A DNA stretch of 64,000 bases from Roseomonas sp. (GTDB lineage Bacteria > Pseudomonadota > Alphaproteobacteria > Acetobacterales > Acetobacteraceae): positions 1 through 64,000 of the forward strand of contig JADCFQ010000005.1 of NCBI GenBank assembly GCA_020249435.1, in the 5' to 3' direction. Positions 26,591 through 43,150 of this stretch are shown in pieces. Position numbers and translations under genes: made by a program. The notes under the pieces were generated by a model that made no database searches, was not told the origin of the DNA, and worked only from the letters and a program-made list of their open reading frames with translations. Numbering within the stretch: the stretch's first letter is position 1; each line of letters opens with the position of its first letter.

Positions 26591-26616
26591 GTAACCTTCC
26601 CACGACCTACGGCGTA
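26591..26616 (+). promoter_or_regulatory. ECF sigma promoter, site 1 (sigma factor gene)
   Basis: GTAACC at 26591-26596, exactly 16 bases, then CGTA at 26613-26616. It lies about 70 bases upstream of the sigma factor start. It resembles the GTAACC-N16-CGAA promoter that I recall for Caulobacter sigma F, and suggests autoregulation. Four further exact-spacing sites occur in the cluster at 36-43 kb. Confidence 0.72.
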
Positions 26617-26687
26617 AAGACCCAGGGCGTTCCTCCATCCATGCTTGACCCATCTGCACAGGCCGCCCCGCAAGGAGTCGTCTTGGA

Positions 26688-27329
26688 ATGCCGAGTACCT
26701 GCCTGCCAGCCTATCCAATGGCATCTGGCCTGATGGATAAGCCGGGCCTCGCCGCCGCCGCGCCGGATGACCGCGATGCGCGCGATCTGCGCTGGTCGTG
26801 CCTGATGGCCGCGGCACAGGCAGGCGATCGGCGCGCCTATGAGGATTTGCTGCGCGAATGCCTGCCGCTGCTCCGCCAGATTTGCCGCGCCAGGCTGCGC
26901 GATGCGACCGAAGCTGAGGATGCGGTGCAGGACACGTTGCTGACCATCCATCGTGCGCGGGCGAGCTATGATGCCTCTCGCCCCTTTCGCCCCTGGCTGG
27001 TCGCCATTACCGAAAGGCGGGCGCTTGACCGCATCCGTGCCCGTGGCCGCCGTTCTGGGCGAGAGGCTGCGCTTGATCTGGCGGCGGAGCTCCCGGCACC
27101 CGAAGGCAGTGCCGATGCTGCTTTGGATGCCAATCGTGCGGCGGCCCAGTTGCGTGAAGCCGTGCAGGATTTGCCGCAATCCCAGCGCACCGCGCTTGGG
27201 CTGACCAAGCTGCAGGACCTCACGATCCAGGAAGCGAGTGCGCGTTCCGGCATGAGTATTGGCGCGATCAAGGTCGCGACACATCGCGCCGTGCAAACCC
27301 TGCGCCGCAGACTGACGGGGAAGGAGTAG
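26688..27329 (+). CDS. ECF-type RNA polymerase sigma factor (SigF-like)
   Basis: 213 residues. Region 2 is shown by ACRARL-type helix RQICRARLRDATEAEDAVQD and RPWLVAITERRALDRIR; region 4 by LREAVQDLPQSQRTALGLTK and IQEASARSGMSIGAIKVATH. There is no regulatory C-terminal extension. The chosen ATG at 26688 has AAGGAG ten bases upstream; MDKPG at 26733 is possible. It is followed after 6 bases by a NrsF-type anti-sigma factor, the arrangement of Caulobacter sigma F. It probably drives the GTAACC-N16-CG(A/T)A promoters in this window. Confidence 0.9.
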   Translation: MPSTCLPAYPMASGLMDKPGLAAAAPDDRDARDLRWSCLMAAAQAGDRRAYEDLLRECLPLLRQICRARLRDATEAEDAVQDTLLTIHRARASYDASRPFRPWLVAITERRALDRIRARGRRSGREAALDLAAELPAPEGSADAALDANRAAAQLREAVQDLPQSQRTALGLTKLQDLTIQEASARSGMSIGAIKVATHRAVQTLRRRLTGKE

Positions 27330-27335
27330 CGGGTC

Positions 27336-27989
27336 ATGCAAAGCGAAGACCTGATCCACCGTTTGGCCGATGATCTCCGCCCGGTTCGCCCGGCGCGGCC
27401 CCCTGGCACGGCAACAGCGCTTTGGCTTGGGCTGGCCGCTGCCGTCATTATTGGCGCGGTGCTGTTCTTGGGCCTGCGGCATGATCTGGCGGAACGCCTC
27501 GCCAGCGGGTTCGATGCCCCGCAACTGGTCACGGCACTTGCCACCGGTGTGCTGGCCGCCTTCGCCGCCTTTCAATTGGCCTTGCCGGATCGCAGCCGGC
27601 TTTGGGCCCTTCTGCCGCTGCCCGCTGCCTTGGGCTGGCTTGCCACCATGGGCTGGGGCTGCTTGCGGGATTTTGTGAAAATCGGGCCGGAGGCCTTGCA
27701 AATCGGGGTGAGCCTGCCTTGTTTCAGCTTCATCCTGGGCCTTGGCATACCGCTCACCATGGTCATGCTTTGGCTGTCCCGCCATGGGGCCTGGTTCAGC
27801 CCCGGTCCCGTTGCTGCCTTGGGCGGCCTATCCGCCGCCGCGATGGCGAGCGTTGGCCTCAGCCTCATTCATCATTTGGATGCGGTGCTGATGGTGCTGA
27901 TTTGGCATGGCCTATCGGTTCTGGTGGTGACCGCGATTGCGGCCAAGTTCGGCCCCGGGGTAATGCGGCTTGCGCGCTCAGGGGAATGA
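27336..27989 (+). CDS. nrsF: NrsF/DUF1109-type membrane anti-sigma factor
   Basis: 217 residues with about six hydrophobic segments (for example ALWLGLAAAVIIGAVLFLGL and LVTALATGVLAAFAAFQLAL) and a short N-terminal cytoplasmic tail (QSEDLIHRLADDLRPVRP) of the kind that binds the sigma factor. Two cysteines lie in membrane-proximal positions (WGCLRDF; LPCFSF), as in NrsF, where they are implicated in sensing metal stress. The signal sensed here is inferred, not shown. It is six bases downstream of the sigma gene. Confidence 0.85.
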   Translation: MQSEDLIHRLADDLRPVRPARPPGTATALWLGLAAAVIIGAVLFLGLRHDLAERLASGFDAPQLVTALATGVLAAFAAFQLALPDRSRLWALLPLPAALGWLATMGWGCLRDFVKIGPEALQIGVSLPCFSFILGLGIPLTMVMLWLSRHGAWFSPGPVAALGGLSAAAMASVGLSLIHHLDAVLMVLIWHGLSVLVVTAIAAKFGPGVMRLARSGE

Positions 27990-28050
27990 AACCAAATCGG
28001 TTTCGACCGGTCGCTGTGTGTTTCGTGTGAAGGACAGAAAGTTTTAGAGC

Positions 28051-28842
28051 ATGCTCGCCTTTGAAACCATGATCAGGTTATCCGCCTCCATCGGCGTGCT
28101 CAGCATCATGCTGATCCTGCAGCATGCGTTTCCGCGTCGGGCGCAGCGGCTTGCCTGGCGGCGTTGGCCGAGTAATTTCGGGCTGGTGGTGATTTCCTCC
28201 CTGCTCGTGCGGCTGCTCATTCCAACCGCGGCGATTGGTGTAGCACTTTATGCCGAAGCCCAGGGCCTTGGGCTGCTGCGCTGGCTTGGCGTGAATGAGA
28301 TTATCGGTGGCATCCTGGCGGTGCTGCTGCTGGATATGCTGATCTATTTTCAGCATCGTGTCTTTCACGCCCTGCCCATTCTGTGGCGGCTGCATCGCGT
28401 GCATCATGCGGATACGGAATTGGATGCTTCTTCGGGCTTGCGCTTTCACCCGATTGAGATCCTGCTTTCCATGGGCATCAAAATGGCGGCGGTGGTCGCG
28501 CTGGGTGCTCCTGCCGAAGCGGTGCTGGTGTTTGAAGTGCTGTTGAACGCGACCGCCATGTTCAATCATTCCAATGTTGCGCTGCCGCTATGGCTTGATC
28601 GCGTCTTGCGCTGGGTTCTGGTGACGCCGGATATGCACCGCGTGCATCATTCGGTGGTGCGCGCTGAAACCGACAGCAATTTCGGCTTCTGCCTTTCCGT
28701 TTGGGATCGGATTTTTGGCACGCATATCCCGGACCCCGCCGCCGGGCAGCTTGGCATGGTGATCGGCGTTGAGGAGTTCCGCGCTGATGAGGAACAGCGG
28801 CTGGATCGGCTGCTGACGCAGCCTTTCAGGCGCGGGGTTTGA
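28051..28842 (+). CDS. sterol desaturase/fatty acid hydroxylase family di-iron protein
   Basis: 263 residues with several membrane helices. The histidine clusters that bind the di-iron centre are present: HRVFHALPILWRLHRVHHAD (HxxxH and HxxHH) and TPDMHRVHHSV. An additional histidine lies in FNHSN. The family oxidises lipid alkyl chains or sterol-like compounds in the inner membrane. It begins about 60 bases after the anti-sigma gene on the same strand and may be co-transcribed with it. Confidence 0.88.
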   Translation: MLAFETMIRLSASIGVLSIMLILQHAFPRRAQRLAWRRWPSNFGLVVISSLLVRLLIPTAAIGVALYAEAQGLGLLRWLGVNEIIGGILAVLLLDMLIYFQHRVFHALPILWRLHRVHHADTELDASSGLRFHPIEILLSMGIKMAAVVALGAPAEAVLVFEVLLNATAMFNHSNVALPLWLDRVLRWVLVTPDMHRVHHSVVRAETDSNFGFCLSVWDRIFGTHIPDPAAGQLGMVIGVEEFRADEEQRLDRLLTQPFRRGV

Positions 28843-29138
28843 TTGGGTGTAGCGCGCCTGCTGGGCTGCTCGTTGCTGCCCTTCCCCAACAACAACTTCA
28901 CTACGCCGTTTCAGTCTTCCGGACTTGTTGCGAATTACAACGAGGTTATGTTTTTAATGGTGAGGGCTAGGTTTCCAGAATAAAGAGACCGCACCATGAA
29001 TTTACGGTGACCGCCGCCACAGTCGCAGCCAAATACCCACGAACAAAAAGTTTCCTCAATTTTCTTCGAGAAGAGGAGTTTCGGCATTCCAAGTTGATCT
29101 TACTGCGGCAAGGATGCACGAAGGAAGATATAGATATG
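28843..29138. other. AT-richer left flank of the ASCH/PIN/kinase island
   Basis: Base composition changes here from the GC-rich chromosome to visibly AT-richer DNA. A short open frame on the plus strand (29007-29243) overlaps the kinase gene on the opposite strand, lacks a clear ribosome site and is not called. I see no integrase, terminal repeat or tRNA at this edge. Confidence 0.4.
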
Positions 29139-29678
29139 CTATCGCGAAATAAGGAGCTGAGCCAACCGATCAGTGTCGTTATGCGTAACAATATAAAAAG
29201 GGGCACACAGCAGGGCGGCGATAGCTTGGGCGTGAGCACGTGAAAGCGCTTGGTGCCGTTCAAGAATGTGAAATGGATAAGCTGGACGATGGCGCAATGT
29301 GTCTCCTTCGCGGTTCGCGGCAATCCGCTTGGGCTCGGCTTCCAAATGTACCATGACTGAAACCCCTAGCGCCTTGAAAACTTCACTTGAGATTGTTGTT
29401 AGTTCTTCCCCATTATCAATAACGACATGACCATCCATAACGATCAGGTCAGCATTTGAATCACGTGTGAGTGCGAAGCCCTTGATCAAAAGGCGCTGAT
29501 TTTCATCAAGGTCAGCATAGCGGATTGAGTCTCTAGAATCCGAAGCAGCCCCTCGCGCGGTAGCAATAAGGGTACCGCCTGTGATGTGTTGGAAGTCGAT
29601 TTTCTTTGCGAGCTGGCGCAAGAAGGAGGTCTTTCCAACACCGGAGATACCGGTGAAAGCAACAATGAGCTGGTTCAT
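29139..29678 (-). CDS. P-loop nucleotide-kinase-like protein of the ASCH/PIN cassette
   Basis: 179 residues. Walker A is GISGVGKTS (about 10-18). A Walker-B-like strand LIVMDGHVVID follows, and a lid-like arginine segment (EAEPKRIAANREGD) lies near the end, as in adenylate/cytidylate kinase-type P-loop kinases. The substrate is not known. The start overlaps the stop of the PIN-GNAT gene by 4 bases, so it is the last gene of a coupled three-gene cassette. Codon use is less GC-rich than the surrounding chromosome. Confidence 0.75.
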   Translation of the reverse strand: MNQLIVAFTGISGVGKTSFLRQLAKKIDFQHITGGTLIATARGAASDSRDSIRYADLDENQRLLIKGFALTRDSNADLIVMDGHVVIDNGEELTTISSEVFKALGVSVMVHLEAEPKRIAANREGDTLRHRPAYPFHILERHQALSRAHAQAIAALLCAPFYIVTHNDTDRLAQLLISR

Positions 29679-31213
29679 ACCTCAAACGCCAGATTTGCTC
29701 GCTTAACCAGTACAGCCGTCATTGCCTGGCTAAGGCTGTAGATTGACTGCTGGGGGTGGCCCCTGATCACACCCATAGTTCGAAGCTCGTCAAGCGACAC
29801 CGCAGGCTCGATGTATGACACCAGCAGGTAGTTGATAACCTTGACCGGTCGCTCTTGCGATGCATTCCAGTTCTCCAACTGCTCCTCACTATAAACGGAT
29901 CGTCCACCGGTCAGTTGCATTAGTTCTTTGGTTGATCGCGCGAGTGTCACGCTTTCTAGGACGCCAAGGGCGGTAATGGCTTGCGATGGGGGATTCTGGG
30001 ATGCGCTCTTATAGAAAAACAGAAGAGATCCAGCGGGACCGAGCCTCGATTTGGCACGACATAGGTATACCTTTCGGATTGTGTTGCCGGGCCTTGTGAT
30101 CGTCTCGGCGCGAGATGCATCACTAAAAAGGTCAGGCTGAACTGGGTGATAAAGGTCTGGGTAGAGCGTATCGTGATATGCCTCTTGGATCGGAATGCCG
30201 AAGCCAGCTGTATTGTCGCGAAGAACGAAGCGTGGATAGTGCTCTCGAGCAAGATCGAAGTCGCTTCTGCCATTTTGCGGAGACAGGGCCGCAGTGGAGA
30301 AGTGTCGTTCATAAATGTACTCGCCGTTGGCGTTGTGACCGGCAATCCCAAATCCGTAGAACTCCAAAAGCTGCATCAGAGCGACTTGGTCTTCATAGGT
30401 CGTAAGGTATGCAAGATCATACTTGTTGACCTGTGCGTACCAGAGAACTTGTTTCAGAAGCAGTTCACCGAGCTTTACCCCCCGGCTTTCCGGTGCAACC
30501 TTGAAAGTACAGATCTTGAGAATTTTAGCCGCTTTTGTGATCGCATCTGTATCCAAGGGCTCTTCGTCTTTACGAACGATCAATCCTACCAAACGGTCGC
30601 CATCATAAACCACCCAGCACGAGCGATGCTGCTTCACGCATTTTTCTCGCCACCAGGCATCGAACTCCGGATAACCTTCTCGAAGGCTATCAAAAAATGC
30701 GTCCCTGCTGTCAATCTCATGTGCCTCCACTTCCCCAACGTGGCGGATCGGCACTTGCCTCGGCTCGTAGGTCTGGACGAGTAATTCCGTAGCGTCACTG
30801 ATGAACAGGACACGTCGGGCAAGGTCGGGAGAATGCTTCTGGGCACGCTGATGGAGGCCTTTGTCTTGAGTTACAAGAAAGTCTGCGGCACCATACTGAA
30901 GTGAGTGAAGAAGCATAGCGTCGACAACATCGTTAGGTTTATTCAGTGGCCCGAATGCAACTTCGAGATCGGACTGGCTCAACCCGCGCTGCTTCCTCAG
31001 CAGTCGATACTTTTCTATCTTGCTCAGCGAGATCTGGCGGCGCTTTGAGTCTGTATCACGGGCGATGTCATCCTTCGCCGCCTCATGAACGTAAACATCT
31101 ACCTTATGAATTGCCGCGAGCGCGAGAAATCTAGCATAAGCCGCTTCGACTGTGTGATTATCTTCGAGCCCGATCAGGATGTTCGTATCAATGAGATACC
31201 CTTGATGGCTCAT
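29675..31213 (-). CDS. fusion of PIN nuclease-like, GNAT acetyltransferase and PUA/EVE-like domains
   Basis: 512 residues. Residues 1-145 look like a PIN domain: GYLIDTNILI with Asp9, a central NDVVDAMLLHSL acidic pair, and FLVTQDKGL. Residues about 165-305 look like a GNAT fold, with CTFKVAPESRGVKLGELLLK giving the acetyl-CoA loop and LLEFYGFGI near its end. The last ~130 residues, from RKVYLCRAKSRLGPAGSLLF through ITALGVLESV, look like a PUA-superfamily (EVE or ASCH-like) module that would bind nucleic acid or modified bases. Such a triple architecture suggests an RNA- or nucleotide-directed effector. It overlaps the upstream gene by 26 bases. Confidence 0.72.
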   Translation of the reverse strand: MSHQGYLIDTNILIGLEDNHTVEAAYARFLALAAIHKVDVYVHEAAKDDIARDTDSKRRQISLSKIEKYRLLRKQRGLSQSDLEVAFGPLNKPNDVVDAMLLHSLQYGAADFLVTQDKGLHQRAQKHSPDLARRVLFISDATELLVQTYEPRQVPIRHVGEVEAHEIDSRDAFFDSLREGYPEFDAWWREKCVKQHRSCWVVYDGDRLVGLIVRKDEEPLDTDAITKAAKILKICTFKVAPESRGVKLGELLLKQVLWYAQVNKYDLAYLTTYEDQVALMQLLEFYGFGIAGHNANGEYIYERHFSTAALSPQNGRSDFDLAREHYPRFVLRDNTAGFGIPIQEAYHDTLYPDLYHPVQPDLFSDASRAETITRPGNTIRKVYLCRAKSRLGPAGSLLFFYKSASQNPPSQAITALGVLESVTLARSTKELMQLTGGRSVYSEEQLENWNASQERPVKVINYLLVSYIEPAVSLDELRTMGVIRGHPQQSIYSLSQAMTAVLVKRANLAFEV

Positions 31214-31982
31214 CTCGAAGTGCCTTTCTCAGGTTATGCTTGGCATAGAGAAAAGATTGAGGTGGTTCAAAGCCGAATTTCTCTCGAAGCTCATGAAGTG
31301 GTAGCGGGCGCGTGAAAGATTTTACTTCATCAAAGACGAGCGCGTAGCCATAATCCAATCCTTCGAAATACTTATCGAATAACGGCCGCTCAATAAATGC
31401 TGAGTTTTCAAACTCAGTCCAGATTTGTTCGACAGGAAGCTTGAGGACATCACGGATCGAAGCGGTACCAACTATCGCTTTCACTGGCGCGCTTGAATAA
31501 ATGTAGGCCAAGACCCCATGCGGAGTTGTAAACGGAAAGCGGCGGCGCAATTCCACCGTCTTCTGGCCGGCAAGAATCTTTTCAGAGTAGGCCGGCTTGA
31601 TAGACAACACCACGTCGCGTTGGGGCTTAAACGGCTCTTCAGCGAGAATTGGGAGCACGAGTTGGTCATCGTGCCCATGCTCGATATCGAAGGGCGCGCT
31701 CTGCAACCGCGCCGCAATCGGGGTATCAACTGGAAAATGCGCGTTCAGCCGCAGCGAAGCGCCAAGAGCCTTAACATAGCGTTCCACAGTACTGAGGAAA
31801 ATCTCGCCGCCGTTCTCGATTTTGGAAATCGCGGCTTGCTGGACGTCCATGCGAGCGGCAACATGCTCTTGCGTTAGGCCCGCCAGAATCCGCAGCCTCC
31901 TGAGTTCGGCACCGACGCGTGCCGTACCTGTCCCGCTCTCGACGGCCTCTGCTTCGATAACTTGCTCGGTAACCTTGCCCAT
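31188..31982 (-). CDS. XRE helix-turn-helix plus ASCH domain protein
   Basis: 264 residues from the ATG at 31982, with an excellent GAGGAAA site five bases upstream. Residues about 20-80 are an XRE-type HTH (LRILAGLTQEHVAARMDVQQ followed by AAISKIENG). Residues about 125-235 are an ASCH domain: VLSIKPAYSEKILAGQKTVE, continuing LRRRFP, contains the diagnostic GxKxxExR. ASCH modules resemble PUA domains and are thought to bind RNA or act on modified nucleosides. First gene of the cassette; the HTH suggests it also autoregulates, as antitoxins often do. Confidence 0.85.
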   Translation of the reverse strand: MGKVTEQVIEAEAVESGTGTARVGAELRRLRILAGLTQEHVAARMDVQQAAISKIENGGEIFLSTVERYVKALGASLRLNAHFPVDTPIAARLQSAPFDIEHGHDDQLVLPILAEEPFKPQRDVVLSIKPAYSEKILAGQKTVELRRRFPFTTPHGVLAYIYSSAPVKAIVGTASIRDVLKLPVEQIWTEFENSAFIERPLFDKYFEGLDYGYALVFDEVKSFTRPLPLHELREKFGFEPPQSFLYAKHNLRKALRDEPSRVSH

Positions 31983-32409
31983 GTGTTTCCTCTCGACCTT
32001 CGATTCTTCTAAGCTAGGGCAGCATTCCATGCAAGGAATATTCTGCTGTCATATTTGTGGGCAGCCAGACACGAGGTAGAGAAACCCGAGTTAGACTGTC
32101 GGAGAGTAAATAAGTGATGGAATGAGTACCGCGACGAAGAAGAAAGCAATGAGACTCGCGTATTTTCCGGTGAAAAAGAATCTCAGCAAGCTGAACTTTA
32201 GCTGTTTTTTCGCAGTTGGCCGCCAGATGTTGGCTTCTCTCCGGGCGAGATACCGCAAACACCAAGGCGCTACCGTAGCTGTGAGATGCCTGCGTATCGC
32301 TAATTTGGGGCTTCAACTAATGTTAAGAAATTCGTGTCAGTCCCATATCGTTATTCTTGTGTAGGGCCATTTTAGGGTCAGAAAGAATGAACACGAATCG
32401 CACCAATAA
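31983..32409. other. AT-richer upstream region of the ASCH cassette
   Basis: Should hold the cassette promoter; I could not fix one with confidence. A plus-strand frame at 32122-32364 (80 residues, basic) and a minus-strand frame at 32014-32316 are both open, but neither has family resemblance or a good ribosome site. The base composition returns to GC-rich at about 32400, which marks the right edge of the island. Confidence 0.4.
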
Positions 32410-33255
32410 CTACCACACCAATCCCGCCGGCATCAGCTTCTCCCCACGCCGCGCCCGTTCCGCCGGGGGCAAGACATCGCAGGAAGGCCAGATGCCGCTG
32501 CCAAGCGCCGCCACATAACCCTCTGGCAGGCCCGCCGCACGCATGGCCGCTGCCGCCGCAGCATGGTCATACTCCAAGGGCAGGATTTCAACGCCAAGGC
32601 CCGCTTCGCCCGGCGTCAGCACGGCGAACCAAATGCGCGGCGTGCCATCATCGGCGGGCATGCCAATCGCCCCCGCATTGATCCAAACCCCCTGCCCCAC
32701 CTGGCGCGCAAAGGGAATGCCGCAATGCCCCGCAATTACGCCATCGCATCCGGTGGCGGCGATTTCCGTCGCCAATTCTGCGGGCGTTGTGGAGGCGAAA
32801 ATGAAGCGGCTGATATCGCTTGCCCCGCCATGCAGCACGGCAAGCCGCCGCCCATCCGGCAGCCTGACCATCAGCCGATGCGGCAAGCCCGCCATCCAGG
32901 CGCGATGCGCCGCCGTCACCTGCCGATCGGCATGCGCATACCAGGCGCGGGAGAGCAAATCGCACGCCGTCCCCTCCTCAAACCCGCAGCCGCAATCAAG
33001 CGCGCCGGCTGCCAGATTTTCCTCGCAATTGCCGGCAATTACCCAAATGCCGCTCGCCGTGATCAAGTCACAACAGGCGGCCGCATCGGCGCCATAGGCA
33101 ACAACATCGCCGGTGCAGATCACACGCTCTGCCGAAATGCCGCGCCGCACCGCTTCGTCCAAAATGGCGCGCGTTGCCTGCAGGTTTGAATAGGGGCCGC
33201 CAAAGACCAGCAGCGGACCATCCGCGACCAGTTCCGTCAAAGCTGTCTGAGACAT
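32410..33255 (-). CDS. metallophosphoesterase family protein
   Basis: 281 residues from the ATG at 33255 (GGAGGA upstream). Calcineurin-like motifs are seen: VFGGPYSNLQAT in place of GDxHxN, the central GDVVAYGADAAACC, AGNCEEN (GNH/E motif), LHGGAS and a C-terminal GHCGIPF. The first motif is unusual because FGGPYSN replaces the common SDIHGN. Last gene of the radical SAM/phn operon; its start overlaps the end of the ATPase gene by 19 bases. It may remove phosphate from the imported or modified compound. Confidence 0.85.
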   Translation of the reverse strand: MSQTALTELVADGPLLVFGGPYSNLQATRAILDEAVRRGISAERVICTGDVVAYGADAAACCDLITASGIWVIAGNCEENLAAGALDCGCGFEEGTACDLLSRAWYAHADRQVTAAHRAWMAGLPHRLMVRLPDGRRLAVLHGGASDISRFIFASTTPAELATEIAATGCDGVIAGHCGIPFARQVGQGVWINAGAIGMPADDGTPRIWFAVLTPGEAGLGVEILPLEYDHAAAAAAMRAAGLPEGYVAALGSGIWPSCDVLPPAERARRGEKLMPAGLVW

Positions 33256-33875
33256 CCATCCTCCAGGCAAAGCAATCGGTCGGCAAAGCGCGCGGCCAAA
33301 TCATGTTGATGCAGCGATACCAGCACCGCGAGGCGATCCCGGCGCGCGAGGTCCTGCAATAGGCTCAGCACGTCCTCTGCCAGCGCAGGGTCCAGGCTTG
33401 CCACGGGTTCATCCGCCAAAAGAATACGGGATTGCTGGTGCAGTGCGCGGGCAATGGCGACACGCTGGCGTTGCCCACCGGAAAGCCGATCCGCCCGCCG
33501 CCCCCCAAGCCCAGCGAGGCCAACCCGCGCCAGGCTAGCCTCAGCCAGGGCCATTTCCGCCCTCGGCCAAAGCCGCAGCGCCGCGCGCCAGAAACCCATG
33601 CGCCCAAGCCCGCCCACCAGCACATTATCACGCGCGGTCAGGCGGCTTGCCAGCGCGTGTTGCTGGAACACCAGCGCGGGCTGGCCTTGCGACTCACGCT
33701 TGCCGGAGGACGGCAAAAGCCCCGCCATGGCGCGCAGCAGCGTGGTCTTGCCCGCCCCTGAAGGGCCGATCAGCGCCACCATCTCCCCCGCCGCCACGCC
33801 GAGCGAGACATCCCGCAGCACCACGCGCCCACCAAGCGAAGCGCCAAGCCCTTGCACTGATATCGCCAGCATCAC
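33237..33875 (-). CDS. ABC transporter ATP-binding protein, PhnC-like
   Basis: 212 residues. Walker A is GPSGAGKTT, the Q-loop LVFQQHAL, the signature LSGGQRQRVAIARAL, Walker B RILLADEPVASLDP, and the H-loop LVSLHQHDLA. Together with the adjacent permease and binding protein it forms a phosphonate/phosphite/phosphate-type importer. The start is either the GTG at 33875 or the ATG at 33872; both overlap the permease stop. Confidence 0.9.
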   Translation of the reverse strand: MMLAISVQGLGASLGGRVVLRDVSLGVAAGEMVALIGPSGAGKTTLLRAMAGLLPSSGKRESQGQPALVFQQHALASRLTARDNVLVGGLGRMGFWRAALRLWPRAEMALAEASLARVGLAGLGGRRADRLSGGQRQRVAIARALHQQSRILLADEPVASLDPALAEDVLSLLQDLARRDRLAVLVSLHQHDLAARFADRLLCLEDGCLRQL

Positions 33876-34618
33876 AGCAACCTGGCGCGCAAGGCTGCGG
33901 AAAGCCGGTCAGCCGTCAGGGTCATGGCGACGATCAGCGCCAGAATCGCCAGCACGCGGCTGAAATCCAGCAAATCCACCGCGTTTTTCAGCTCCTGCCC
34001 AATGCCGCCGGCGCCCACCAGACCAAGCACGGTGGAAGCACGGATATTGAATTCCCAGACATACAGCGCCGCCGAGGCGGTTTGCGGCAATGTCTCCGGC
34101 AGCAGGATCACAGCGGCTGCCTGGGCGCGGCCTGCGCCGGCGCTGCGCGCGGCTTCCATGGGTGCGGGATCGGCGGCCTCCAGCGCTTCCGACCAAAGCT
34201 TGCCCAGGCTGCCGGCGGAATGCAGCGCCACGCCAAGCATGCCGGCAAAGGGGCCAAGCCCGACGGCGGCGACAAAAATCAGCGCAAAGACAAAGCCATC
34301 AATGCCGCGCAAGGCATCCAGCAAGGTGCGGATCGGGTGATACAGCACCGGGTAGGGATTGGCGGGCTTGGCTGCCATCAGCGCCAGGGGCAGCGCCAAA
34401 ACCCCCGCCAGAGTGGTGCCCAGGGTCGCGAGGGCCAGCGTTTCCGCCGCGCGCGCCGCCAGGTCTCCAAAGCCCGAAAAATCAGGCGGGAAGCCGCCCG
34501 CAATCCAGCCGGCAAGCCGGGGCAGTCCAGCCCAAAGCCGGCCCAGATCGGGCTGCACCACCCAGATACAGGCCGCCTGAACCGCAATGAACCCAATGAT
34601 CCAGGCAGCCCGCCGCAT
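33872..34618 (-). CDS. ABC transporter permease, PhnE-like
   Basis: 248 residues from the ATG at 34618, overlapping the binding-protein stop by one base. Several membrane segments are visible, with the cytoplasmic EAA-type loop EAADPAPMEAARSAGAGRAQ and the PhnE-typical segment EFNIRASTVLGLVGAGGIGQ before the last helices. The full set binding protein-permease-ATPase is contiguous and translationally coupled. Confidence 0.9.
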   Translation of the reverse strand: MRRAAWIIGFIAVQAACIWVVQPDLGRLWAGLPRLAGWIAGGFPPDFSGFGDLAARAAETLALATLGTTLAGVLALPLALMAAKPANPYPVLYHPIRTLLDALRGIDGFVFALIFVAAVGLGPFAGMLGVALHSAGSLGKLWSEALEAADPAPMEAARSAGAGRAQAAAVILLPETLPQTASAALYVWEFNIRASTVLGLVGAGGIGQELKNAVDLLDFSRVLAILALIVAMTLTADRLSAALRARLL

Positions 34619-35472: not shown

Positions 35473-35486
35473 GGGGTGTTCCTTGG

Positions 35487-36484: not shown

Positions 36485-36510
36485 TACGCTCCTTGTTTCC
36501 CAAAGGTTAC
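36485..36510 (-). promoter_or_regulatory. ECF sigma promoter, site 2 (radical SAM/phn operon)
   Basis: On the minus strand GTAACC (36510-36505), exactly 16 bases, then CGTA (36488-36485). It is 33 bases upstream of the radical SAM start at 36452 and inside the short gap after the GT2 gene, so the downstream five genes have their own promoter. Confidence 0.75.
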
Positions 36511-36530: not shown

Positions 36531-37244
36531 TCAGGTGTTTCGCCGGGTGGGGCGCGCCAGCGCCTCCGCTGCGATGACCCAGAGGATTTTCCACCCCGCC
36601 TTGATCGTGCCCATCAGGGTTCCCGATATCTTGGAATGGCCAATGCGGCGCCGATAGCCCACCGGCACTTCCCGCACGCGAAGGCCAAGGCGCGCGGCGC
36701 GCACCTGCATCTCAACGGTCCAGCCCCAGGTTTCATCGCGCATTTGAAGCCGATCCAGTGCTGCCCGGCTGATCACACGAAAGGGGCCAAGATCCGTATA
36801 GCCTATGCCCCAAATCAGGCGGATCAGCCGGCAGGCCAGCGCATTGCCAAAGCGCTGCTGCGGCGTCAGCGCGCCCGGTTCGACATCAAGGCTGCGCGCG
36901 CCAATCACCAGTTCCGCCCCGTCTTCGATGAGGGGTGCGAGCAGCCGCGGCAAATCCTCGGGCCTGTCCGAGGCATCGGCATCCATGAACAGGACCGTAT
37001 CCACCGCAGGGGATAGCGCGGCGATGCCTGCAAGGCAGGCCCGGCCATAGCCGCGGCGGGGTTCGGAGACCACGCGCGCCCCCATGCCTGCTGCAATTTC
37101 CGGCGTGCCATCGGTGCTGGCGGTATCCACCACAATCACCTCAGCGACCTTTGGCAAGATAGCGCTGAGAACCTTGGGCAGCGCCGCGGCCTCATTCCTG
37201 GTGGGCATGATGACGCCGATGATGGGCGGGGCTGTGGGCTTCAT
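36531..37244 (-). CDS. GT2 glycosyltransferase, polyprenyl-phosphate-sugar synthase-like
   Basis: 237 residues from the ATG at 37244, which overlaps the upstream stop (ATGA). The GT-A fold begins VIMPTRNEAAALPKVLSAIL, has VIVVDTASTDGT and the metal-binding DxD in FMDADASDRPED. The acceptor region TDLGPFRVISRAALDRLQMR and the terminal GHSKISGTLMGTIKAGWKIL are as in dolichyl/polyprenyl-phosphate glucose or mannose synthases. It probably charges a lipid carrier with a sugar used by the membrane glycosyltransferase encoded just upstream. Confidence 0.87.
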   Translation of the reverse strand: MKPTAPPIIGVIMPTRNEAAALPKVLSAILPKVAEVIVVDTASTDGTPEIAAGMGARVVSEPRRGYGRACLAGIAALSPAVDTVLFMDADASDRPEDLPRLLAPLIEDGAELVIGARSLDVEPGALTPQQRFGNALACRLIRLIWGIGYTDLGPFRVISRAALDRLQMRDETWGWTVEMQVRAARLGLRVREVPVGYRRRIGHSKISGTLMGTIKAGWKILWVIAAEALARPTRRNT

Positions 37245-38584
37245 GGGTTGGCGCGCCGCCGGATCAGGTTTTGGCCGAGCATCATCAGCACCCCCGCAAG
37301 ATGAATAGCCGCGATGCCCTGCGTGAAAACCGAGCTCAGCACGGGGCCGTTGAAGGCAAAGAACAAATAGTAAAGCGGCAATAGCACCGCCGGCAGCAGC
37401 AAGGCCCGGCATCGCAAAACCGCGGCAAAGGGCAGGAACCACACCGCATACCAAGGGAATTGCGCCGGTGAGAGGTAGAAGGTCGCCGCCGCAATCACCA
37501 GCACACCGCGCAAAAGCGCGCCGCCATTTGTGGGCGCGCGCCAGGCCATGGCGAGGGCAATTGCGGCGCCCGCGAAGCCAAGCAGCGGGCGCAGTGTCGC
37601 GCCGGATTCTTCGCCCAGGATCGCCTCGGCCCAGGCCATGGGTGCGTTATTGACGGACCAGAAACGCGCATAGGCGTTCAAACCCGCATCCGGCGCGGCG
37701 ATTGTCGCCAGCAATGGCGCGAGAACCAGCAAGGTTGTCGCACCAAACGCGATCAAGGCGCCAAGCCAGGTGCTGCGCGGCAGCCAGCGCCCGAAAAGCG
37801 GCGCCAGCAGCACAGGCCAAAGCTTCACGCCGGCGGCAAGGCCGAGCAAAACCCCAACGGCAATGCCCTTGCCGCGCAGCGTCAACAGCACCGCGCCCAA
37901 CAGCAGCGGCGGCAAAAGCGCATCCACATGCGCTGCATTGGTCAGTACAAGCGGCAGCAGCGGGCAGCACCACCAGATCGCCACCCGCATGATCGGAAGC
38001 CCCGCTTGGTGCAGCACAGCAGCCATCAGCGGCAAGGTGACAAGCTCCGCGCCCAGGATCACAAGCCGAAGGCCCGCGACATCCCAGGGCATGATCCAAT
38101 GCGCCAGCAGAAAGGCGGCCTGGGCTGTGGCGGGGTAGATGCTGCGGAGCTCGGTAAAGGGAAGCCTATCCAGCAGCGCTGCCCCGGCCGCGCCAAGTTC
38201 AGGCGGCAGGCCCGCCGCCGGGGGCGCAGCCCAGGGAGAGATCCCATGCGCGGCCAGCGCCCCATCCCAAAGATAACGCAGCGCATCCGTATCGAGCACA
38301 AGCGGTGTGGTGAACCAGGGCAGGCGGATCGCCAGGCCAAAGGCGAAAACCCCAAGCAGCACCAGCGGGCGCATCGGCAGGCGTTCCAGCGGGCCAAGCG
38401 CGGTAATCCAGGCGGCGCCGCCAAGTACGGCAAGCGCGACGTAGAGGAATATCGGCAGCGGCTGCGCGGTGAGCTCATTGGCCAGGGAGGGCGCAAGGGC
38501 CAGCATGGCCAATTGCGTGAGCGCGATGATCGCTGCTGAGCTAGCCAATGGCGCGCCCCTGCCCGGCGCCAAGTCACTACCCAT
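37241..38584 (-). CDS. GT-C-type multi-pass membrane glycosyltransferase (DUF2029/GT87-like)
   Basis: 447 residues with about ten or more hydrophobic segments. The first periplasmic loop contains TPLVLDTDALRYLWDGALAA, an acidic pair position typical of GT-C enzymes, followed by YPATAQAAF; later come PLVLTNAAHVDALLPPLLLG and YLSPAQFPWYAVWFLPF. Such enzymes take sugars from polyprenyl phosphate. It is coupled to the GT2 gene. I did not find a GTAACC promoter in front of it on the minus strand. Confidence 0.75.
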   Translation of the reverse strand: MGSDLAPGRGAPLASSAAIIALTQLAMLALAPSLANELTAQPLPIFLYVALAVLGGAAWITALGPLERLPMRPLVLLGVFAFGLAIRLPWFTTPLVLDTDALRYLWDGALAAHGISPWAAPPAAGLPPELGAAGAALLDRLPFTELRSIYPATAQAAFLLAHWIMPWDVAGLRLVILGAELVTLPLMAAVLHQAGLPIMRVAIWWCCPLLPLVLTNAAHVDALLPPLLLGAVLLTLRGKGIAVGVLLGLAAGVKLWPVLLAPLFGRWLPRSTWLGALIAFGATTLLVLAPLLATIAAPDAGLNAYARFWSVNNAPMAWAEAILGEESGATLRPLLGFAGAAIALAMAWRAPTNGGALLRGVLVIAAATFYLSPAQFPWYAVWFLPFAAVLRCRALLLPAVLLPLYYLFFAFNGPVLSSVFTQGIAAIHLAGVLMMLGQNLIRRRANP

Positions 38585-38588: not shown

Positions 38589-38614
38589 GTAACCTGAAGC
38601 CTGGTTGCGGCGAA
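38589..38614 (+). promoter_or_regulatory. ECF sigma promoter, site 3 (rhodanese gene)
   Basis: GTAACC at 38589-38594, exactly 16 bases, then CGAA at 38611-38614. It lies 35 bases before the rhodanese start chosen at 38649. This copy has the CGAA form of the -10 element. Confidence 0.76.
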
Positions 38615-38648
38615 AATGTTGAAGCGCCATCAAAGCCGGGATATCGCA

Positions 38649-39230
38649 ATGGAAATGTTCAAGCCCCCGCTGCCAAATCGCCGCCTTGTTGTGGGCATGG
38701 TGGGCGCCACCATCCTGGGCGGCGCTGGCATGGCCATGGCATGGCCTTGGCGTCGCGGCCTGCCCGATCCCACCGATCCGCGCACCACGCTGCAAGCGGT
38801 TGAAGATGCTATTGCGCGACTGCTGCCGGAACCGGAGATGACAACAACGGCCTTGGCGGCACGGCTGGCTGCGGGTGAGCGCATCATATTGTTCGACACG
38901 CGCGAGCCTGATGAATACGCGCAAAGCCACCTTCCGGGCGCGCTGCGCGTTGCACCGGATGCGCCCGCCAGCGCGATATTGGCCCAATACCGCGCGCTGA
39001 TGGCTGATGCGACCGTGGTTGTTTATTGCTCGGTCGGGTGGCGTTCGGGTCTGGTGGTGCAGGCCATCCGGCGCGCTGCGAATGATGCGCCGGCCAAGGC
39101 GGTCTTCAATCTGCGCGGCGGCATCTTCCGCTGGCATGCCGAAGGGCGCCCCTTGGAATTCGGGCCCGGCGCTTCGGGCGTGCATCCCTTCAGCCGTGAT
39201 TGGGGACATTTGCTCAAGCGCCTTGGCTAG
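38649..39230 (+). CDS. membrane-anchored rhodanese-like protein
   Basis: 193 residues from the ATG at 38649; a start at 38616 would fall at or before the transcription start set by the promoter. An N-terminal anchor or signal (RRLVVGMVGATILGGAGMAM) precedes a single rhodanese domain: ERIILFDTREPDEYAQSHLP, and the active loop YCSVGWRSG with the nucleophile at about Cys127. Handles sulfane sulfur or related thiol chemistry, probably at the periplasmic face. It runs opposite to the flanking operons but shares their promoter type. Confidence 0.85.
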   Translation: MEMFKPPLPNRRLVVGMVGATILGGAGMAMAWPWRRGLPDPTDPRTTLQAVEDAIARLLPEPEMTTTALAARLAAGERIILFDTREPDEYAQSHLPGALRVAPDAPASAILAQYRALMADATVVVYCSVGWRSGLVVQAIRRAANDAPAKAVFNLRGGIFRWHAEGRPLEFGPGASGVHPFSRDWGHLLKRLG

Positions 39231-39284: not shown

Positions 39285-40079
39285 TCAGGTGCCCGCCGGC
39301 GCATTGTTCAAGGCCCAATCATAGGCATCCTCGGCAATGCTCGTAGCTCCGGCAAGGCGCTGGCGAAGCGGCGGGGCGGCGAATTGCCGGAGATGCGCAA
39401 TGACCCCAGCCTCATCGCCACCGAAATCCTCGCGAAACCAGGTATAGATTGAGGACACACGCAAGCGCCCATCCGGCAGAACGGTCACGCCGCGCGGATG
39501 ATTGACATAGGCGGCGGCAGCGGCATTCAGCTCGGCTTCCAGCGTCGCGGCGCGCCAGACCCGCGGCCAGAGATTGGGGCAGCCGATGGAGGCGCAGTTG
39601 ACAGCGTAATGCACGCGCGGATCGCGAAAGTAGGGTCGCATCGTGCCGTGTTCGATATCGTCAAGCGACATGCGCTTGCCTTCCACGGTCACAAGCCGCG
39701 TCCGCCAAGGGCCGATATAGCCCTTTGGGTCAAAGGGCACGCCTGATGAGCGGATGTCGCGAATGGACCGCACCGGGTGGCGTTCCAGCACGACCTTGAG
39801 CGTCAGCGCATTATAGAGATTGGCCCAATAGGCAAAGGCTTCAGGCCGCGCCATGCTGGAAGGGCTGCGCGTTGCAGCCTCAGTGATCCAGGCATCAAGC
39901 GCGCGCATATCCTCGGCTGAAGCCTTCAGCGCGGCGTAGCGCACGCGCGTCACGCCATCGGGTGGTTCAATGACATAGCGCGCCAACAAGGCACCAAGGC
40001 TCACGTCAGGATTGGCAGCGGCGCGGCGGAGCGGCAGCGCGGCAATGGCAAGCGCGCCGAGCGCGCGACGGGTTGGCAT
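39285..40079 (-). CDS. DUF547 family exported protein
   Basis: 264 residues from the ATG at 40079. A short basic signal (MPTRRALGALAIAALPLRRA, cleavage near AANP) precedes the DUF547 core: EAFAYWANLYNALTLKVVLE, DDIEHGTMRPYFRDPRVHYA and VNCASIGCPNL, the last holding the cysteine-histidine signature of this family, which is papain-like in fold. Function is not established. Last gene of the FAD oxidoreductase-TVP38-DUF547 operon. Confidence 0.88.
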   Translation of the reverse strand: MPTRRALGALAIAALPLRRAAANPDVSLGALLARYVIEPPDGVTRVRYAALKASAEDMRALDAWITEAATRSPSSMARPEAFAYWANLYNALTLKVVLERHPVRSIRDIRSSGVPFDPKGYIGPWRTRLVTVEGKRMSLDDIEHGTMRPYFRDPRVHYAVNCASIGCPNLWPRVWRAATLEAELNAAAAAYVNHPRGVTVLPDGRLRVSSIYTWFREDFGGDEAGVIAHLRQFAAPPLRQRLAGATSIAEDAYDWALNNAPAGT

Positions 40080-40089
40080 GATCGCTCTC

Positions 40090-40800
40090 CTAGGACTTCG
40101 CAAATCGTGCCTTGAGCGGAATGGCAGCGAGTGACAGCAAGGCAAGCCCGATCAGGGCGCCCAGTATTTCAGGCGTCAGCACGGAACCGACATCAAAATC
40201 GCCGCCCTGCGCCAGCACATCGCCAAGCCCGGCGCCGGCCAGGCTGAACACCGCCGTGCCCGGCAGAATGCCAATCGCCGTGGTGATGATGTAGATCGGC
40301 AGGCGCACACCAACAAAGGCCGGCACCAGATTGACCAGAAAAAAGGGGAACAGCGGCACAAGACGCAGCACCAGCAGATAGGAAGCGGCATTGCGGCGAA
40401 TTCCCTCGCCCAGGGCACGCGCCTTGGGGCCCATGCGATCCAACGCATCAGCGCCGAAAATGCGTTGGGCGAACAGGAAAATCAACGTGGCGCCAATGGT
40501 GGCGCCAAAGACCGTCAGCGCTGTGCCCAGGATGGCGCCAAACAGAAACCCGCCGGACAGCGTAATGAAGACGGCGCCGGGCACTGAGAAAGCGACCGCC
40601 ACCACATAAAGCAAAACATAGGCGCCGGCAGCGAGCAGCAGATTGGCCGCAACGAACGCCGCCAACGCTTCCCGATGCCGCGCCAAAGTTTCCAGCGACA
40701 GCTGATCCGAAAGCCCGGTGGCCCGCAGCATGATCAGAATCGCCACAACGGCAAGCGCCACCCAAAGCCGCCGGTCGCGGAGCAGATGCTTGAGTTTCAC
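40090..40800 (-). CDS. TVP38/TMEM64 (DedA-like VTT) membrane protein
   Basis: 236 residues from the GTG at 40800. Several membrane helices surround the VTT signature: FSVPGAVFITLSGGFLFGAI and GTALTVFGATIGATLIFLFA, followed by the re-entrant-helix region LVLRLVPLFPFFLVNLVPAF. VTT proteins are linked to lipid scrambling or transport. It is 13 bases after the FAD oxidoreductase gene and 10 bases before DUF547. VTT proteins and MerA-like oxidoreductases are often neighbours in other bacteria. Confidence 0.9.
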   Translation of the reverse strand: MKLKHLLRDRRLWVALAVVAILIMLRATGLSDQLSLETLARHREALAAFVAANLLLAAGAYVLLYVVAVAFSVPGAVFITLSGGFLFGAILGTALTVFGATIGATLIFLFAQRIFGADALDRMGPKARALGEGIRRNAASYLLVLRLVPLFPFFLVNLVPAFVGVRLPIYIITTAIGILPGTAVFSLAGAGLGDVLAQGGDFDVGSVLTPEILGALIGLALLSLAAIPLKARFAKS

Positions 40801-40813
40801 GGTGCCTTCCCCG

Positions 40814-42292
40814 TCACGGCAACCAGCGCTGCAGCAGCCCAACCAGGCGCCGCGTGCGCGCGCTGAAAAGGCTCGGCGTGTAAAAACTGCCGGCAGCGCG
40901 CTTGGAAATCTCCGACATGGTCGGATAGGGAGCGATCATCGAAGCAATGGCGCCGATTTTCATTTTCTGCTGAATGGCAAGGCCCCAAACGCCGATCATC
41001 TCCCCGGCGCGCGGGGCGAGAATCGTGGCCCCCAGAACGCGCCCGCGCGGCCCCAGGATGATTTTTGCAAGCCCTTCGGTTGCGCGTTCCGCCTGGGCGC
41101 GGTCATTGCCGGCAAGCGGTTGCAGCAATGTCGAGACATCATGCCCAGCCTCCCGCGCGGCTGCTTCCGTCAGGCCGACATGCGCGAGTTCTGGGTCAGC
41201 ATAGGTCACCCAGGGCAGCGCGGCATAATCAACCTTCGCCGGCAGGCCAAAGAGCGCATTCCGAATGACAATGCCCGCGTGATAGCCGGCGATATGGGTG
41301 AATTGCGGGCCGCCCGAGACATCGCCTATCGCAAAGACGCGCCGATTGCTGCTGCGCAGGCGTTGATCAACCGTGATGCCGCGCGGCGTCACTGCAATGC
41401 CGGCGGCTTCAAGCCCAAGCCCGGCGGTATTCGGTTTGCGCCCGGCCGCCACCAGCAGATGCGACCCTTGCACCAGCACGGTGCCCGCATTGCCACGCAA
41501 TTCCAGTTCAACCCCTGTGCCAGCGTTGCGCGCCGCCACTACTTCAATACCCTCATGCAGGGTGATGCCTTCGCGGATCAGGGTATCGCGCAGGATTGTC
41601 ACGGCCTCGGGCTCATCACGGGGCAGGATGGCAGCGCGTTCAACCAAGGTGACGCGGGCGCCAAGGCGGCGAAAGGCTTGCGCCATTTCAATCCCGATGG
41701 GTCCCCCGCCCAGGACCAGCAAATGGTCCGGTTTTTCTGTCAGGCCGAAGATGGTTTCATTGGTGAGATAAGGGATATCGCCAAGCCCAGGCACGGGCGG
41801 AATGGCGGCGGTAGACCCCGTTGCCACGACAAACCGGCGCGCCCGGATGCGATGGCTGCCGGCCTGGACTTCAGCCGGCCCCGAGAAGCTTGCTTGCGCC
41901 TGGATCACCGTGACGCCAAGGCTTTCAAAGCGTTCCACACTGTCATGCGGGGCGATGGCGGCGATCACGCCATGCACATGCTGATGGACCTTGGCGAAAT
42001 CCACCACGGGTTCATGGTTGGAGATGCCGAACTGGCCAGAATCGCGCTGGGCATGCGCAGCATGCGCCGCGGCCAACAGCGCCTTGGAGGGCACGCAGCC
42101 GGTATTGAGGCAATCACCGCCCATCAGGTGTTTTTCAATCAGCACAACAGAAGCGCCCATCTGCACGGCGCCGGCTGCCACGGAAAGCCCACCCGATCCC
42201 GCACCGATAATGCAAAGATCCGCGTGCAGAATGCCATCGCGCAGCACCGGGCGGCGCGCGGCAATTCCAGAGGATGGCGATGCAGCAGTCAC
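40814..42292 (-). CDS. MerA-like FAD-dependent pyridine nucleotide-disulfide oxidoreductase
   Basis: 492 residues from the GTG at 42292, chosen because the promoter lies at 42323-42348 and an AAAGG precedes it; the open frame further upstream overlaps DUF2064. The FAD-binding motif is CIIGAGSGGLSVAA, the redox-active disulfide GGDCLNTGCVPSK (Cys61, Cys66), the NAD(P) motif VLGGGPIGIEMAQAF, and FAIGDVSGG near the middle. It lacks the N-terminal heavy-metal domain and C-terminal CC pair of true mercuric reductase, so mercury reduction is not supported. First gene of its operon. Confidence 0.9.
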   Translation of the reverse strand: MTAASPSSGIAARRPVLRDGILHADLCIIGAGSGGLSVAAGAVQMGASVVLIEKHLMGGDCLNTGCVPSKALLAAAHAAHAQRDSGQFGISNHEPVVDFAKVHQHVHGVIAAIAPHDSVERFESLGVTVIQAQASFSGPAEVQAGSHRIRARRFVVATGSTAAIPPVPGLGDIPYLTNETIFGLTEKPDHLLVLGGGPIGIEMAQAFRRLGARVTLVERAAILPRDEPEAVTILRDTLIREGITLHEGIEVVAARNAGTGVELELRGNAGTVLVQGSHLLVAAGRKPNTAGLGLEAAGIAVTPRGITVDQRLRSSNRRVFAIGDVSGGPQFTHIAGYHAGIVIRNALFGLPAKVDYAALPWVTYADPELAHVGLTEAAAREAGHDVSTLLQPLAGNDRAQAERATEGLAKIILGPRGRVLGATILAPRAGEMIGVWGLAIQQKMKIGAIASMIAPYPTMSEISKRAAGSFYTPSLFSARTRRLVGLLQRWLP

Positions 42293-42322
42293 GCGATTGA
42301 ACCTTTCTGAGTTGAAACGCCT

Positions 42323-42348
42323 TTCGCTGGGAGGTGCCAGAAGGTTAC
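42323..42348 (-). promoter_or_regulatory. ECF sigma promoter, site 4 (FAD oxidoreductase operon)
   Basis: On the minus strand GTAACC (42348-42343), exactly 16 bases, then CGAA (42326-42323). It starts two bases after the DUF2064 stop and is 31 bases from the GTG at 42292. Confidence 0.76.
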
Positions 42349-42350
42349 GT

Positions 42351-43094
42351 TCAGCCCAGGCCTGCTTGTTGCGAGGGCGGTATTTCCGCCGCCGTCCAAG
42401 CCGCCAGCAAGGCGCGCGTATACCGCGCTGGACCACCTTGTACCACCGCATCAGGGAAGGGGGACTGCCCGTCAAATTCAGCCTTCAGACGCTGAAAATC
42501 CTCCGCCTCATCCACATCATACCATTTATGCAGCACATGCACCGGCAGGCCCATTTGCGCTGCACGTGCGCAGGTGGTGGAGAAGACCGCCGGTGTGCTC
42601 CAGGCCATGTTACGGAATAATGTCGGATGAAAGCCCTTCAGCCCAATGAGATTATAGCCGCCATCCAGCGAAGGGCCGAGGACGACGCGATCACCATCGG
42701 GGCGCAGCGCAGTGATGGCTTCTTCGATCAGAACACCAGGCAGGCTAGGGCTGTCGCTATTCACGAAAACAACGCTGTTATGCCCCGCCTGGAGCAGCAC
42801 CTTCAAACTTGCTTCCAGCACCTGCCCAACATCATCGGCCTCGCGCGGGATTAGCTGCCAATCAGAGGTGAGAAGTTCGCGCAGCACTGCCTCGGTGCCG
42901 GCGGGGCTGAATAGCGCGTAGCATTGCCGGGAGAGCGTTGCGGGTAAAGCCGCCAAGGTTTCTGCAACATCACGGATGAAACAGGCGGAGAGCTGGGCTG
43001 TTCGACTCTGGCCAAGCAATGGCCAAAGCCGCGACTTGCCGCGCCCGATGGCGGGGGTTTTGCAGACAAGCGCGATGGCAATTTTTGGCGTCAT
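42351..43094 (-). CDS. DUF2064/TIGR04282-type glycosyltransferase-like protein
   Basis: 247 residues. The nucleotide-sugar-transferase-like fold is shown by ALVCKTPAIGRGKSRLWPLL, VFVNSDSPSLPGVLIEEAI with a DxD-like site, and VLGPSLDGGYNLIGLKG. The family is named in databases after arsenosugar biosynthesis clusters, although many members are uncharacterised. It is a single-gene unit behind its own ECF promoter; the next gene downstream has a separate one. Confidence 0.88.
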   Translation of the reverse strand: MTPKIAIALVCKTPAIGRGKSRLWPLLGQSRTAQLSACFIRDVAETLAALPATLSRQCYALFSPAGTEAVLRELLTSDWQLIPREADDVGQVLEASLKVLLQAGHNSVVFVNSDSPSLPGVLIEEAITALRPDGDRVVLGPSLDGGYNLIGLKGFHPTLFRNMAWSTPAVFSTTCARAAQMGLPVHVLHKWYDVDEAEDFQRLKAEFDGQSPFPDAVVQGGPARYTRALLAAWTAAEIPPSQQAGLG

Positions 43095-43124
43095 TATTCC
43101 AGGAAACCTAGAACAAGCTCCTTA

Positions 43125-43150
43125 TACGCCGAAAGGGCTGCTAAGGTTAC
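43125..43150 (-). promoter_or_regulatory. ECF sigma promoter, site 5 (DUF2064 gene)
   Basis: On the minus strand GTAACC (43150-43145), exactly 16 bases, then CGTA (43128-43125), 31 bases before the DUF2064 start. It is the last site seen, and the IS remnant begins about 30 bases beyond it, so the cluster probably ends here. Confidence 0.75.

Follow-up and report, generated by a model that had tools for sequence, protein, structure and literature searches.

The best described relatives of the system treated here are members of ECF16, a group of extracytoplasmic function (ECF) sigma factors. In its prototype, SigF-NrsF of Caulobacter crescentus, the sigma gene is followed by that of a six-helix anti-sigma of family PF06532 and the regulon is small; the promoter was mapped by 5' rapid amplification of cDNA ends (5'RACE) for two target operons, a site also stands before the sigF operon itself, and the targets reported are DUF692/DUF2063/DUF2282/DoxX operons and YedY (PMC3511200). 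EcfF-OsrA of Bradyrhizobium and BcrS-AbcS of Brucella are reported with the same architecture and the consensus (T/C)GTAAC-N17-CGAA (PMC3420878, PMC8315932). Signal sensing by NrsF is unsettled, the reported inducers differing by species: chromium and cadmium in Caulobacter (PMC3511200), H2O2 in Bradyrhizobium (PMC3420878) and HOCl in Brucella (PMC8315932). Here we describe a system of this kind in 64,000 nucleotides from Roseomonas sp. (contig JADCFQ010000005.1, positions 1 to 64,000; "the window" throughout), where a sigF gene, an nrsF gene and a cluster of further genes are preceded by five copies of the motif GTAACC-N16-CG(A/T)A.

It is highly probable, judging from the sequence comparisons below, that the ECF sigma factor encoded at 26688-27329 uses the five sites as its promoters; NrsF would hold this factor inactive and release it on a signal. 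The regulatory architecture is already known from ECF16, whilst the targets differ from those of Caulobacter, being a radical-SAM enzyme, an HtxB-like importer, a TIGR04282 transferase, a disulfide reductase/TVP38 pair and a rhodanese. Neither this regulon nor its type of NrsF was found among the open-licence literature matches listed, which is no proof of novelty, as the 2021 ECF reclassification lies outside these.

Five probable promoter sites and their link to NrsF

The five sites of the original prediction are all exact, with position and strand as given there, and the window holds no sixth; the remaining 13 of its 18 GTAACC hexamers were correctly said to have no CGWA at 16 nt. All five sites were found by pattern search and are backed by ortholog conservation.

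26591..26616, +, sigma-F-type promoter 1, GTAACC-N16-CGTA, own (sigF) operon
36485..36510, -, sigma-F-type promoter 2, CGTA, radical SAM/importer operon
38589..38614, +, sigma-F-type promoter 3, CGAA, rhodanese
42323..42348, -, sigma-F-type promoter 4, CGAA, FAD oxidoreductase/TVP38/DUF547
43125..43150, -, sigma-F-type promoter 5, CGTA, DUF2064
26688..27329, +, ECF sigma factor (start 26688 or 26733; Sigma70_r2 and r4_2 models, tree)
27336..27989, +, NrsF-family anti-sigma, CCH subtype with C109, C129 and H179 (PF06532, 97 bits; structure model)

From the end of the motif to the start codon there are 71 or 116 bases for sigF (ATG 26688 or ATG 26733), 32 for the radical SAM gene (ATG 36452), 34 for the rhodanese (ATG 38649), 30 or 75 for the FAD oxidoreductase (GTG 42292 or GTG 42247) and 30 for the DUF2064 gene (ATG 43094). 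The motif had been named as the sigma-F promoter of Caulobacter, and it does equal the 5'RACE-mapped promoter in sequence and spacing (PMC3511200) and fits the reported ECF16 consensus (PMC8315932), with CGTA in place of CGAA at three of the five sites, which stand before the own operon and the targets alike. The sigma factor has the two domains of an ECF protein (sigma-70 region 2 and region 4 models), and the neighbour named as an NrsF-type anti-sigma is indeed a six-transmembrane DUF1109/NrsF protein (PF06532 at 97.4 bits with a cut-off of 26.8), which scores 22.1 with the NCBIfam equivalog NF042994, whose cut-off is 300.

Five strict sites compare with a mean of 0.07 in 100 dinucleotide shuffles of the window, the largest number in any shuffle being 2 and five being reached by none. 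The genome-wide scan that had been proposed covered exact matches in the 3.80 Mb (62 contigs) of the same genome and returned 7 strict matches including the five of the window; of the other two, one falls within a called gene, and neither precedes a start on its own strand, and as two is about background level the five window sites are the excess. Read backwards, the strict pattern has 33 matches in this genome, which is a rough control as the composition differs. With the spacer opened to 12-20 nt there are 25 matches, 7 of them at N16 and none at spacings 12 and 18, and an excess at any spacing besides 16 was rejected as each of the others that occurs has 1-4 matches. The published consensus YGTAAC-N17-CGWA gives 6 matches, the five window sites and one inside an open reading frame (ORF) read as glutamyl-tRNA synthetase. 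Other such promoters being nearly absent, the strict regulon in this genome is a single locus of about 17 kb.

The original prediction had also proposed a search for the motif upstream of orthologous genes, and the strict motif was found in 52 of 57 such regions: 13/14 for sigF, 13/13 for the radical SAM gene, 9/10 for the rhodanese, 9/10 for the FAD oxidoreductase and 8/10 for DUF2064. The alignments drew on as many as 14 further sources, namely 12 congeneric genomes plus the loci L307 and L308. Since regions had been selected for carrying one or more strict sites or a related sigma gene, the counts lean to presence; the contrast between motif and spacer at the other sites is independent of that choice. 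Mean identity to the window across the aligned upstream regions was 0.97-1.0 for the ten motif bases, 0.46-0.83 for the 16-nt spacer and 0.36-0.81 for the rest. Two genomes (G014 and G019) have all five sites at matching places, and a third (G017) has both of the sites that its 8.2-kb contig can hold. That the five sites behave as promoters is thus supported, because the exact motif is kept in 52 of the 57 regions while the spacer drifts. Each promoter nearly always keeps its own base at the variable place in the -10 element, CGTA for sigF, radical SAM and DUF2064 and CGAA for the rhodanese and the FAD oxidoreductase, as if it were setting promoter strength.

The bare strict pattern occurs in 35 of the 39 genomes of one scanned set, and matches alone therefore prove nothing; the case rests on position and conservation. 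NrsF is present in 27 of 35 genomes of the genus, the one containing the window included, and all 27 have a site before the sigF operon, which supports the sigma-F regulon originally proposed. These are 29 sites, 15 directly before sigF, 13 before an intervening membrane-protein gene (OpgC-like by eye, the representative from G015 having no Pfam hit) and one before a chimeric ORF (G003). The sole NrsF of 30 with no strict site (G001:C12) is of the two-cysteine type and has a GTAACG version upstream.

The 229 strict sites of the genus, three one-site regions of G050 out of 163 regions being left out, were classified with a simple, purpose-made gene caller, so that coding and intergenic calls are approximate, and a site within 250 bp upstream of a same-strand start was called promoter-placed. 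In genomes with NrsF this holds for 150 of 210 sites (50 inside genes, 10 other), and in genomes with none for 1 of 19 (17 inside genes, 1 other), a difference with a Fisher p of about 1e-8 when kinship is ignored.

A Cys-Cys-His form of NrsF

The cysteines described in NrsF proteins are C131 and C181 in Caulobacter (PMC3511200) and C129 and C179 in Bradyrhizobium OsrA (PMC3420878) and Brucella AbcS (PMC8315932); our alignment places those of the Rhizobium etli p42f protein at C131 and C181. Unlike all of these, the window NrsF has a histidine (H179) at the second position, it keeps the first cysteine as C129, and it has an extra cysteine at 109. In its predicted structure (predicted local distance difference test score, pLDDT, of 90; six long helices) C109, C129 and H179 lie near helix ends of one side, which by charge distribution would be the outside.

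The C-C-H combination was found in 27 of the 30 NrsF loci of the genus, with one x-C-C and two (L053, L057) that proved to be C-C-H on re-reading. The 29 loci from the class comprise 11 C-C-H, 10 x-C-C, 3 x-C-E and 5 that were misread or poor, three of which were re-read as two-cysteine (L248), CCH (L250) and neither (L251). In none of the rows for these 30 genus and 29 class loci do both extra cysteines occur together. A wider sample of 83, drawn with window-type sigma factors and hence favouring this type, has 76 C-C-H, 4 unscorable at the third position and 3 that differ (L248, L251 and L367). C109, C129 and H179 are among the ten invariant columns in an alignment of 60 proteins, the window's and 59 of 78 located NrsF; the 19 outside it include L367, with threonine at 109 the one known exception, and four that are unscorable at the histidine position (L329, L358, L371, L374).

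The forms were also compared with the phylogeny of their sigma factors. In a tree of 60, 10 of the 12 partners of x-C-C proteins are in one clade (99/93), and 43 C-C-H rows with the odd row L367 are on a weakly supported branch (88/60); the NrsF type changes 4 times on this tree compared with 15.9 times for shuffled labels. The window sigma factor is outside the clade of two-cysteine-type partners, in a tree from which Caulobacter SigF is absent under its name. By its sequence, then, the window protein is a sister subtype of NrsF in which one sensor cysteine has been kept, the other is a histidine and a new cysteine has appeared. In OsrA C179 is reported to be needed for the response to H2O2 and C129 for holding the sigma factor (PMC3420878), and as the window protein has histidine at the former position a different sensing chemistry can be predicted by analogy; a natural subtype with histidine for cysteine and a new cysteine gives a direct test of how NrsF senses.

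The NrsF proteins on plasmid 3 of Nitrobacter hamburgensis (Cys 110/130) and on a plasmid of Rhizobium sp. T136 (Cys 109/129) also have histidine at the second canonical position. These two (L406, L408) sit beside bufferin-type DUF692/DoxX genes, in contrast to the radical-SAM/importer cluster of the window, and the C-C-H sensor type is therefore not tied to a single target set. Among plasmid records, 152 match a query of the two-cysteine NrsF type and 18 match the window NrsF. More tentatively, and with the balance leaning against it, the CCH-type NrsF might be a separate sensor class in which a periplasmic Cys-Cys-His (metal/redox) site has replaced the two-cysteine switch and answers to a different signal, and which in Roseomonas-like bacteria has become dedicated to a single undescribed pathway, where a radical-SAM enzyme and sugar transfer go together with an importer of phosphite type.

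The genes of the locus

Downstream of nrsF the window holds the following, in order of position.

28051..28842, +, membrane protein of the fatty-acid-hydroxylase family, its gene following nrsF on that strand (PF04116; synteny)
28967..32316, -, strain-variable island of helix-turn-helix, PIN/GNAT-like and kinase-like genes, not in the regulon (weak family matches)
32410..33270, -, gene following phnC, by eye similar to a metallophosphoesterase, without an NCBIfam match (conserved synteny)
33237..33875, -, PhnC-like ATPase, below the PhnC cut-off (NCBIfam)
33872..34696, -, PhnE-like permease (TIGR01097, above cut-off)
34618..35532, -, substrate-binding protein nearest HtxB (46% identity), Ser/His at two pocket positions
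35487..36452, -, radical SAM enzyme, closest to the NCBIfam model Rv1681 but under its cut-off
36531..37244, -, GT2-family protein resembling polyprenyl-phosphate-sugar synthases, under the model cut-offs, without its own motif
37241..38506, -, multi-pass membrane protein, by eye similar to a transferase, unmatched in Pfam and NCBIfam, without its own motif
38649..39230, +, rhodanese with N-terminal anchor by eye (Pfam, NCBIfam)
39285..40145, -, DUF547 protein (Pfam)
40090..40842, -, TVP38/DedA-family (VTT) membrane protein (Pfam)
40814..42292, -, FAD pyridine-nucleotide disulfide oxidoreductase, MerA/Lpd-like, below equivalog cut-offs
42351..43094, -, TIGR04282 transferase (DUF2064; 149 bits, cut-off 134)

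The cluster had been called distant from the sigma gene. The two are apart in the window, but this is a local accident of the island at 28967-32316, which is present in G019 and absent from G014 and G017; in the latter two the sigF unit abuts the importer operon and sigF is therefore not intrinsically distant from its targets. The nearest sigma records, among 80 loci retained of 369 in a scan of genomes, are eleven loci of metagenome-assembled genomes (MAGs) with 89-97% identity, of which nine bear the name Roseomonas sp. and the other two Alphaproteobacteria bacterium, followed by Rubritepida, Roseococcus, Roseomonas and other Acetobacteraceae. The cluster, whole or in part, is near sigF in Roseomonas mucosa (a MAG), Rubritepida, Roseomonas rosulenta, Roseococcus and Pseudoroseomonas aestuarii; in R. 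rosulenta OP-27 the locus (L310) has sigF and nrsF together with several of the targets. Within the window the glycosyltransferase and membrane-protein pair (36531-38506) has no site just upstream on its strand, even with two mismatches allowed, and the targets of the canonical sigma-F regulon, whether bufferin (DUF692/DUF2063/DUF2282/DoxX) or MsrP, are not among the five units.

Site-bearing genes of the genus were grouped by clustering, with Pfam run on representatives. The groups are radical SAM (18 sites in 17 genomes), YHS-like (13 in 10) and DoxX-like (10 in 10), both below the Pfam cut-off, DUF2064 and FAD oxidoreductase (each 11 in 11), rhodanese (8 in 8), DUF547 by eye and catalase family (each 6 in 6), DUF302 and PhaC (each 5 in 5), TVP38 by eye (4 in 4), LCAT family (3 in 3), the binding protein (3 in 2) and DUF1223 (2 in 2); 13 singletons include MsrA, MsrB, a ferric-reductase-like protein and thioredoxin. 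Congeners outside the closely syntenic group have sites before radical SAM (G006, G009, G011, G018, G042), DUF547 (six genomes), TVP38 (four), DUF2064 (G016, G018) and FAD oxidoreductase (G016). At the PhaC-like genes of G016, G018, G040, G041 and G042 (locus L195) the spacer of the strict site is nearly conserved as well.

Comparison of the binding protein with solved structures gave HtxB at 267 bits, then PhnD at 79, PtxB at 74 and AioX at 61, and a plain "phosphonate transporter" label was rejected since this favours HtxB. Of the hypophosphite-binding HtxB (5me4) the protein keeps P71-W72-G73, T129 and S130, and also W52, reported for its P-H...pi contact, and the R178-D206 salt bridge (PMC5700983, PMC6629693); unlike HtxB it has Ser for the pocket residue N128 and His for F158. 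These two resemble the STS-H motif of PtxB, the position of F158 probably being that of its His, and because of this likeness the pocket suggests a three-oxygen anion, for example phosphite or methylphosphonate. The genome also encodes the carbon-phosphorus lyase PhnI. DedA proteins of the subfamily COG0398 are reported as fusions with disulfide oxidoreductases (PMC10127716); in the window the FAD oxidoreductase and TVP38 genes adjoin, TVP38 being of the DedA family and possibly of COG0398.

Weighing the reading and its rivals

A number of observations weigh against sigma-F control as set out above. The 50 sites inside genes in the NrsF-positive genomes are a sizeable share of the 210, and half of the eight genomes counted as NrsF-negative are less than 90% complete, so that NrsF may have been missed in them; in the remaining four (G002, G004, G005, G007) 0 of 10 sites are promoter-placed. 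The relatives compared are not independent of each other. Outside the genus, autoregulation by the exact motif is far from universal, as 44 of the 80 loci with related sigma genes in named genomes have GTAAC-N17-CGWA within 1.7 kb upstream of the sigma gene. Of 385 genomes sampled across the class, 115 have the radical SAM gene, as do 33 of 35 in the genus, and the motif is absent from the 400 bp upstream of all 29 orthologs inspected outside the genus, two of which are in genomes with NrsF (G121 and G129). Among 30 radical SAM loci of the genus, 26 are NrsF-positive, of which 17 have the strict motif, 8 do not and one is cut off, and it is seen in none of the four NrsF-negative loci (G004, G005, G012 and G008, the last with only 22 upstream bases). 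Since the gene is widespread while the motif is missing outside the genus and in the NrsF-negative loci, sigma-F control of it is a lineage trait superimposed on an older gene. Eight of these 30 loci, from NrsF-positive genomes (L386, L388, L390, L391, L395, L399, L400, L402), have a GTAACG-N16-CGAA sequence that precedes the other radical-SAM copy by 128-200 bases, in most cases with a similar spacer; this sequence may be coding and was not used. On the side of the signal, the window NrsF has no cysteine equivalent to the C179 reported for the H2O2 response of OsrA (PMC3420878), and the Sinorhizobium ECF16 member is reported not to respond to H2O2, cadmium or chromate (PMC6180224); the signal is therefore unsettled.

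It would be hard to credit that the sites are chance or repeat-derived matches. GTAACC is over-represented in the window, with 18 copies where 6.6 are expected by shuffling and the promoters being five of them, but shuffles, genome counts, counts of the ECF16 consensus and the keeping of the motif while spacers diverge all speak against such an origin. A different reader for genuine and conserved sites, either a second ECF sigma factor or a DNA-binding regulator with the sites as its operator, the adjacent sigma being incidental, is very unlikely; further ECF sigma factors are presumably present in the genome and some NrsF-bearing genomes have no sites before individual targets, but in the genus promoter-placed sites nearly vanish where NrsF is missing, none of the 27 genomes with NrsF fails to have a site before its sigF operon, and the match to the mapped Caulobacter promoters (PMC3511200) covers both spacing and sequence.

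If the sites are read by the adjacent sigma factor, NrsF would be an inner-membrane protein of six helices that holds it inactive, an oxidant or a thiol-reactive metal at the periplasmic face (C109, C129, H179) would lead to its release, and the freed sigma would transcribe its own operon and four further units of the one locus. By analogy with the systems described such a regulon may be stress-responsive. Less certain is the output, for which we give about even odds to an envelope repair or detoxification module, combining periplasmic thiol-sulfur chemistry through the rhodanese and the disulfide reductase with TVP38, uptake of an oxyanion resembling phosphite, and steps of radical-SAM chemistry and sugar transfer. 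The regulon ties conserved genes with no assigned role (radical SAM, DUF547, TIGR04282, TVP38 with the reductase) to one signal and so offers a handle on their function.

The same regulation could serve phosphorus (phosphite or phosphonate) acquisition and not stress repair, an unlikely outcome but one to be taken seriously given the HtxB-like score of the binding protein, its conserved W52, R178 and D206, the Ser and His shared with PtxB, and PhnI; we know of no place in it for the rhodanese, the disulfide reductase/TVP38 pair or DUF547, and the Msr, catalase-family, YHS-like, DoxX-like and thioredoxin genes with sigma-F sites elsewhere in the genus also count against it. Rather less likely still is an arsenosugar- or seleno-type metabolite made under sigma-F control. 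The DUF2064 protein does pass the TIGR04282 model "arsenosugar biosynthesis glycosyltransferase" (149.3, cut-off 134), but the radical SAM enzyme falls far below ArsS (TIGR04167; 54.6, cut-off 300) and the GT2 protein below TIGR04283 (43.6, cut-off 182), and an arsenosugar pathway called from the family name was rejected, two of the three family models failing. A minor observation is made at the outer edge of the cluster, where an ORF at 43182-43553 that is transposase-remnant-like by eye lies just upstream of the DUF2064 promoter.

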